A stretch of 64,000 bases of DNA from an uncultured Psychroserpens sp. (GTDB taxonomy: Bacteria > Bacteroidota > Bacteroidia > Flavobacteriales > Flavobacteriaceae), in the NCBI RefSeq assembly GCF_947492715.1, contig NZ_CANLNS010000002.1, positions 248,001 through 312,000 on the forward strand, written 5' to 3'. The notes beneath the pieces were generated by a model. The model searched no databases. It worked only from the letters and a program-made list of their open reading frames with translations, and was not told the DNA's origin. Below, piece by piece: positions 46,870-47,467 of the stretch. Each line of letters begins with the position of its first letter. The stretch's first letter is position 1. Both the position numbers and the translations under genes were made by a program.

Positions 46870-47036
46870 AGGTTTTATAAGAGTTATTAAGCATATTGTT
46901 AAAAACAATTGAAAAGTAATTCCTACTCTTCTATGTTAAAAAATGTTAAATAACTACTATGTAATGCAAAGTACTGTAACATTTTTTTAATTCTGTCGTC
47001 TTTCTAGTATAACATTAATCATTAAAATCAATTATT

Positions 47037-47126
47037 ATGAGAACTTTAAACAACAATCAATTATCAAATACATCTACAGAAACGAGATTGTATACGTGGA
47101 ATCAAAAAAGAAGATATAGATCATAA
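47037..47126 (+). CDS. MicroORF A, 29-aa basic peptide of a tandem pair
   Basis: Encodes MRTLNNNQLS, then NTSTETRL, YTWNQKRRYRS. It is 24/28 identical to microORF B just downstream. In the last ten shared codons (YTWNQKRRYR) five codons differ between the copies and all five changes are synonymous, which is strong evidence that the frame is translated and under purifying selection. Net positive, with Tyr/Trp and a KRRYR end, no membrane segment. No family recognised. The next ATG is 39 bases downstream; no Shine-Dalgarno sequence, as expected. Confidence 0.7.
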   Translation: MRTLNNNQLSNTSTETRLYTWNQKRRYRS

Positions 47127-47164
47127 CATCTATTTTAAATCATCAATCAAAAAAATCAAATATC

Positions 47165-47251
47165 ATGAGAACTTTAAACAACAATCAATTATCTAGTACA
47201 TCTATTGAAACGAAAATGTACACATGGAACCAGAAAAGACGATATAGATAA
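47165..47251 (+). CDS. MicroORF B, 28-aa paralogue of A
   Basis: Encodes MRTLNNNQLS, then STSIETKM, YTWNQKRRYR. Same design as A: Asn/Ser/Thr-rich front, cationic aromatic end. The upstream block between A and B contains CATCAATCAAAA, also present twice further down, so A and B arose by tandem duplication of a unit of about 128 bp. Function unknown; candidates are an RNA- or membrane-binding peptide, a secreted peptide signal, or a leader peptide for the following gene. Confidence 0.7.
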   Translation: MRTLNNNQLSSTSIETKMYTWNQKRRYR

Positions 47252-47291
47252 TCAAACTATATCACATCATCAATCAAAACATCAATCTATC

Positions 47292-47360
47292 ATGAAAGCT
47301 TTAATTAAAATTATCAACACATCACATACAACAAATGACGACTTAGAGACGTTACGTTAA
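47292..47360 (+). CDS. MicroORF C, 22-aa peptide
   Basis: Encodes MKALIKIINTSHTTNDDLETLR. It begins after the second CATCAATCAAAA copy at the same relative place as B follows the first (12-13 bases), but the peptide shares no clear similarity with A and B apart from the basic start. It may be a highly diverged third unit. Weaker support as coding than A and B. Confidence 0.4.
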   Translation: MKALIKIINTSHTTNDDLETLR

Positions 47361-47427
47361 TAGTGATCAGAAAAACATTTATTCATCAATCAAAATTGAT
47401 ATTGAACTAAGTATCAATATTATATCC

Positions 47428-47467
47428 GGAAAAACCAGTAGACTATTTAAGTATACTGGTTTTTTTG
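47428..47467 (+). terminator. Strong intrinsic terminator after the microORF array
   Basis: AAAAACCAGTA (47430-47440) pairs with TACTGGTTTTT (from 47454), 13-base loop, then a T-run. It ends the microORF transcript before the exbD-like gene, or could act as an attenuator for it. Confidence 0.8.

Follow-up and report, generated by a model that had tools for sequence, protein, structure and literature searches.

A short array of conserved tandem microproteins behind a putative ECF-type promoter in Flavobacteriaceae

We analysed a 64,000-nucleotide stretch of the genome of an uncultured Psychroserpens sp. (contig NZ_CANLNS010000002.1, positions 248,001 to 312,000, referred to here as the window), in which three very small open-reading frames (ORFs) stand in a row on the forward strand: microprotein A (29 residues, 47037..47126), microprotein B (28 residues, 47165..47251) and microprotein C (22 residues, 47292..47360). 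A and B are called from their ORFs, their homologues and their non-synonymous and synonymous divergence (dN and dS), C from its ORF and the same comparison of dN with dS. The A and B units form a 117-nt direct repeat of 84% identity, with the copies 128 nt apart. Reading the sequence confirmed two counts made in an initial annotation, which had been drawn from the letters alone: 24 of 28 residues are identical between A and B, and five of their last ten common codons differ, all of them synonymously. The same annotation had taken the element CATCAATCAAAA to mark three units, and sequence and repeat analysis do find three copies, ahead of B (47141..47152), ahead of C (47268..47279) and behind C (47384..47395), but none before A, so the element is part of a duplicated spacer and not the start of a unit. 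Its third microORF is likewise present, though not as an A/B copy: a reading of C as a decayed third copy was tried and dropped, C being a distinct conserved family. The compact unit was said to close at a terminator, and an inverted repeat at 47430..47467 bears this out, with two 15-nt arms of 93% complementarity (47430-47464) followed by a run of T; we regard it as a probable terminator, which a consensus terminator scan applying its own rules did not call at the array. The array is a short, self-contained operon with conserved microprotein products.

The A/B peptides extend far beyond this genome. Where the initial annotation had allowed that related genomes might hold no homologue in a conserved frame, a profile of the family matched 135 of 396 Flavobacteriaceae genomes at E ≤ 1e-5, in 73 of 187 genera; a single A/B sequence used as query reached 82 of 199 family genomes at E ≤ 1, the weakest of these matches lying at chance level. 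In a sample of the class the profile matched two of 296 genomes at E ≤ 1e-4, both Flavobacteriaceae, and in a sample of the phylum A/B matches were found in 11 of 296 genomes at E ≤ 0.01: full-length and strong in four Flavobacteriaceae genomes, partial and weak in two further Flavobacteriaceae and in five genomes outside the family. The source genome carries a third A/B copy, 45% identical, at C1:978144. For comparison between loci we used the best 80 of 314 confirmed stretches from GTDB species contigs, 81 loci with the window, and these hold 124 A/B units with distinct DNA, one unit in 43 loci, two in 34, three in 3 and four in 1. The units share the consensus MRTLNNNQLSxTxxxTKSxxWNSKRRYR, with W21 and N22 invariant throughout and a length of exactly 28 residues in 109 of the 124; they are hydrophilic, carry a charge of +4 to +7 and have no membrane segment, and are therefore probably cytosolic. 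Among 43 tandem A/B pairs the median dN is 0.08 and the median dS 0.43 (one undefined dS left out), in agreement with the earlier claim that the peptide itself is conserved. Codons 2-6 of A/B are conserved beyond the level of the protein: 103 of the 108 units with Asn at codon 5 and 81 of the 86 with Asn at codon 6 use AAC there, against 27% in neighbouring genes (in the window, the region 47037-47060). We read this constraint as acting on the start of translation, and it may also reflect an RNA-level signal.

The third ORF belongs to another conserved family of peptides, distinct from A/B. By pattern, 79 of the 81 loci have a C-type ORF behind their last A/B unit, 56 of these ORFs short and 23 long (one of the long ones, at L093, is doubtful), and C is lacking at L090 and L105 and absent from several secondary loci. 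Short C has the consensus MKALSKIINTSHxLxDDLETxK and a charge of -2 to +2; long C has 43-45 residues, a charge of +2 to +8 and frequently an ending like W-K-G-x-K-R-Y-A-H, and the likeness between the two forms is confined at most to their first residues. In 1183 of 1186 pairs of short C dN is below dS, the pairs not being independent of one another. A, B and C are thus under purifying selection at the protein level.

Upstream of the array, on the same strand, several elements stand in a fixed order: a GTTAA-N5-GTTAA direct repeat (46935..46949), read in the window and recurring in the other loci, which is a possible site for an OmpR-family regulator; a 19-bp palindrome, TACTATGTAATGCAAAGTA (46955..46973), a possible regulator site as well; a single base; and TGTAAC-N16-CGTCT, made up of a -35-like TGTAAC (46975..46980) and a -10-like CGTCT (46997..47001). 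The sequences upstream of the arrays align as one block. TGTAAC-N16-CGTCT occurs in 75 of the 80 loci, always with a spacer of 16 nt, and never in shuffled sequence; the palindrome TACTWTGTNWTNCAWAGTA is found with at most two mismatches in 69 of 80, where shuffles never fell below three; and GTTAA-N4-7-GTTAA occurs in 70 of 80, compared with 0.26 in shuffles. The geometry is equally constant, the palindrome ending one base before TGTAAC in 52 of 53 scored loci, and the spacer of the GTTAA repeat and the gap behind it being 5 and 5 in 48 of 51. An AAC-type -35 belongs to the consensus of promoters read by extracytoplasmic function (ECF) sigma factors. Its pairing with a CGT-type -10 at fixed spacing is a feature of an ECF regulon and is seen in those 75 loci, and its sequence suggests that TGTAAC-N16-CGTCT is a promoter for an ECF sigma factor. 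We also considered a sigma-A promoter of the ordinary Bacteroidota kind and rejected it, as TA..TTTG occurs in 3 of 80 loci compared with 10.7 in shuffles.

Part of the same promoter can be used to find the microproteins. A search of 198 family genomes with CANAGTACTGTAAC-N16-CGTCT, allowing at most one mismatch, returned 94 sites in 83 genomes, and the reversed pattern returned 1. Microprotein genes lie downstream at 89 of the 94 sites, as judged by motif patterns that we defined ourselves and that carry no control for chance rates in random downstream DNA: 61 sites precede A/B units (26 single, 29 double, 6 triple), 20 precede a second type (4 single, 5 double, 9 triple, 2 quadruple) and 8 precede other microORFs with a W in a basic C-terminal stretch, two of which (L235, L236) were assigned by eye. 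Peptides of the second type mostly have 36-38 residues and follow approximately MK..TPTESKxxxxFSxFxNSKRVxWxxxRNYxR. A motif of approximately W-x3-[RK]-[RN]-[YF] lies near the end of A/B, of long C and of the second type; profile comparison gave no significant homology between A/B, C and the second type, though it does align the three kinds that carry the motif in C-terminal register. In six second-type arrays (L244, L246, L248, L252, L257, L261) the leading ORF is of yet another microORF type, marked by an FGW or WGW motif, which stands in second position in L227.

The window's helicase, ExbD and 3D-like genes (the last a Pfam match below cut-off) belong to ORF clusters that recur in 66, 64 and 55 of the 81 loci. 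Many Psychroserpens loci have the array ahead of ExbD, in many Winogradskyella loci it comes behind the 3D-like gene, and a few arrays are located elsewhere; since its position around these genes varies, the array behaves as an independent unit. Other settings were seen as well. At L105, L138 and L139, in three genomes with similar gene order, A/B units without the ECF element have TetR-like, AhpD-like and hydrolase-like neighbours (named by eye), and at L148 (genome G133, contig C2) a divergent unit, itself behind a promoter of the ECF type, precedes what by eye appears to be a MacA/MacB-type efflux operon.

The initial annotation had recognised no known family for A/B, and the database searches agree: neither Pfam, NCBIfam and PADLOC nor the PDB yielded a relative. 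A profile (A1) matched no PDB chain at E ≤ 1, ribosomal small proteins among the solved chains included. PHROGs gave insignificant matches only, to two families, with one of 32 members in each (E 0.25 and 0.32). For seven peptides of C, second-type and related kinds, Pfam and NCBIfam yielded a single match, in Pfam and below cut-off (E 0.073). A search of plasmids and phages found no A/B, and in viral contigs 30 pattern matches were obtained, none of them confirmed. In the open-licence literature, searches with peptide strings, with TGTAAC/CGTC together with ECF and, among the titles and abstracts listed, by topic found nothing on such an array system.

Candidate regulators were sought in the source genome and its relatives. 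An ECF sigma protein with Pfam sigma-70 domains, for which SigW is the best NCBIfam model (below cut-off), has close relatives (E ≤ 1e-50) in 24 of 60 genomes, and in 22 of these 24 TGTAACC-N17-CGTC lies directly upstream of its gene, compared with 0 in shuffles. Two promoter patterns were searched in the source genome; the second gave 10 sites against 2 in a control, among them the array, an ankyrin-repeat gene (Pfam), rhodanese-like and ABC-transporter-like genes (by eye) and several intragenic positions. The ankyrin-repeat gene, at C3 ~63054 (L128), has TGTAAC-N16-CGTCT and an A-rich leader much like that of the array. A comparable set has been described in Flavobacterium psychrophilum, where the ECF motif SM6, which has a CGT box and goes with strong induction at low nutrients, stands ahead of a rhodanese-related gene, an ABC ATPase and an ECF/anti-sigma pair (PMC9723704). 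For the palindrome, a copy with zero mismatches lies, in the source genome only, beside an operon with an HTH_34 (PF13601) winged-helix gene; this sequence match makes HTH_34 a lead only. The operon (C3:339672-341524; L122, L163) holds three array-like palindromes with 0, 1 and 2 mismatches. For the GTTAA repeat, the source genome's third A/B copy is followed by genes for a kinase and a response regulator, the latter matched best in NCBIfam by RprY (239.8 bits, below the cut-off of 370). At E ≤ 1e-20, 18 of 119 genomes contain close relatives of the sensor part of this RprX-like kinase, at 19 loci, and a GTTAA repeat lies upstream of the kinase at all 19, compared with 0.08 of 19 in shuffles. 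Genome G045, of the same genus, has the array but no close kinase match, and a response regulator that reads the array's repeat, if there is one, need therefore not be the RprY-like one; a paper on RprY gave no match for binding-site terms (PMC3646045).

Taken together, the array is very probably a stress-regulated operon with the peptides as its product. In such an operon an ECF sigma factor would read TGTAAC-N16-CGTCT, a winged-helix regulator, perhaps of the HTH_34 type, would bind the palindrome that abuts it, and an OmpR-family response regulator, perhaps RprY-like, would bind the GTTAA repeat; with an ECF factor and these two further inputs, the operon would answer to several envelope or nutrient signals. 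We infer envelope or nutrient stress from the ECF-type control and from the parallel with SM6. The tandem copies recur with few residue changes, which suggests that they serve to increase the dosage of one small, basic peptide. From conservation and charge we infer that the C-terminal end, approximately W-x3-[RK]-[RN]-[YF], might dock on an acidic partner (RNA, the ribosome, or other gene-expression or envelope machinery) and modify that partner's activity in trans, C serving as an accessory peptide; we put this forward tentatively, as possible rather than expected. Read more loosely, as an operon together with a peptide effector of some kind, the whole is on balance probable. In its most specific form, a so far undescribed stress output of Flavobacteriaceae in which a multi-input promoter serves tandem microproteins almost exclusively, copy number sets the dose and the W-x3-[RK]-[RN]-[YF] end acts on one conserved target, it is plausible and somewhat short of probable.

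Several results weigh against this reading. The ECF element is missing at 5 of the 80 loci (L090, L096, L105, L109, L119), one of which, L119, keeps the palindrome, and among 18 secondary loci with units it is present in 11 and missing in 7 (one cut by a contig end). Five of the 94 sites in the promoter search have no microproteins downstream: at L226 (two sites), L269 and L262 the promoter lies ahead of acidic repeat proteins that look exported and have 134-188 residues, and at L263 ahead of a longer protein that starts 298 nt away. The first of the two patterns, TGTAACN{16,18}TCGTCT, has 1 site in the source genome, directly before the ECF sigma gene, against 4 in the reversed control, and the spacer at the sigma gene's own promoter is 17 nt against 16 at the array. 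The palindrome at up to two mismatches gives 22 rows in the source genome against 20 in the reversed control, which is no excess; the GTTAA spacing upstream of the kinase is N6 in 18 loci and N5 in one, against N5 at the array; and the extra conservation of codons 2-6 would also be compatible with an RNA role in that region. The repeat proteins that look exported may themselves be a hint that the regulon has an envelope function. At L226, L269 and L262 (genomes G082, G066 and G048) these acidic proteins carry GFDTSKYLP-like repeats.

The kinase loci also bear on a different role, in which the microproteins are feedback peptides that tune their own signalling circuit, either the RprXY-like pair or the ECF/anti-sigma pair. 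Two of the 19 kinase loci (the source genome and G085) have a unit immediately ahead of the kinase, in G148 one gene separates the two, and the GTTAA repeat is common to array and kinase promoters; the other 17 loci, however, have no recognised upstream unit, 101 of 119 genomes, including the array-bearing G045, have no close match to the kinase sensor, and known feedback peptides of this kind are membrane peptides, whereas A/B have no such segment. We consider this role unlikely. A regulatory or dual-function RNA in the manner of the enterobacterial sigma-E small RNAs (sRNAs), with peptides that matter little, would suit the compact transcript unit with its terminator and the stress-type promoter read from its sequence, as well as the constraint on codons 2-6. 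dN, however, lies well under dS in both A/B and C, the fold of the whole array has z = -0.78, with 23 of 100 shuffles equally stable, and Rfam gave no match at gathering score, the best of four sub-threshold matches lying on the terminator hairpin. The initial annotation had named a structured RNA as something that might explain the conservation better; the fold and Rfam lend this no support, covariation being outside these tests, and we judge an RNA function distinctly improbable.

The remaining readings are more improbable still. In favour of A, B and C as leader peptides whose translation controls read-through into a downstream gene (ExbD, the kinase or another), a terminator separates the array from ExbD in the window; a hairpin-like stretch was also seen by eye between the third copy and the kinase. 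The downstream gene varies by genus, however, and the array stays, tandem copies are unnecessary for read-through control, and ExbD appears in 21 of 91 stretches from the promoter search, always on the same strand, these stretches being short; a leader function is very unlikely. Just as slim is the prospect of a toxin, an antimicrobial or a toxin-antitoxin module in which C would partner the basic A/B. Tandem tiny ORFs do recall type I toxin repeats, and the charge of A/B contrasts with that of short C, but long C is basic too, C is missing from several secondary loci, A/B have no hydrophobic segment, the neighbourhood is largely conserved, and the PADLOC, PHROG (E ≥ 0.25), plasmid, phage and viral-contig searches described above found no confirmed relative. 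The structured-RNA, leader-peptide and toxin readings thus fit worse than a stress-regulated operon whose product is peptide.

What appears to be new here is the peptide families and the architecture of promoter and array, whereas stress-induced small proteins as an idea are already known; we call them new because no relative was found in Pfam, NCBIfam, PADLOC or the PDB, the PHROG matches were insignificant and open-licence full texts did not contain the peptide strings. Genes this short tend to be dropped by annotation pipelines. Among the systems compared, the SM6 regulon has an ECF/anti-sigma pair, a rhodanese-related gene and an ABC ATPase behind its promoters, as at the TGTAAC..CGTC sites of the source genome, and differs in that the available part of the report names no tandem microproteins for SM6 (PMC9723704). 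The array goes beyond SM6, as described there, in its extra palindrome and GTTAA repeat, and the likeness between the two promoters concerns the CGT box. If the peptides are made, a large group of marine and other bacteria would have in them a common and uncharacterised stress output; with its constant geometry, the promoter offers a handle for finding and switching the microproteins, and opens a multi-input ECF circuit in Bacteroidota to direct testing. Type I toxin arrays such as Ldr and Ibs also consist of tandem, near-identical tiny ORFs, whereas the array has no hydrophobic toxin and no demonstrated antisense RNA, and has an elaborate upstream promoter. MgrB and SafA, small membrane proteins that regulate PhoQ in enterobacteria, are also tiny, and are tied to a two-component circuit, whereas A/B are hydrophilic, basic and tandem and not membrane proteins. 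The enterobacterial sigma-E sRNAs, short terminator-ended stress transcripts from an ECF promoter, share with the array the short terminator-ended ECF-type unit; in the array it is the peptide that is selected and no RNA structure stands out, and, if our reading is true, the array would be a peptide-based counterpart of the enterobacterial sigma-E sRNA arm.
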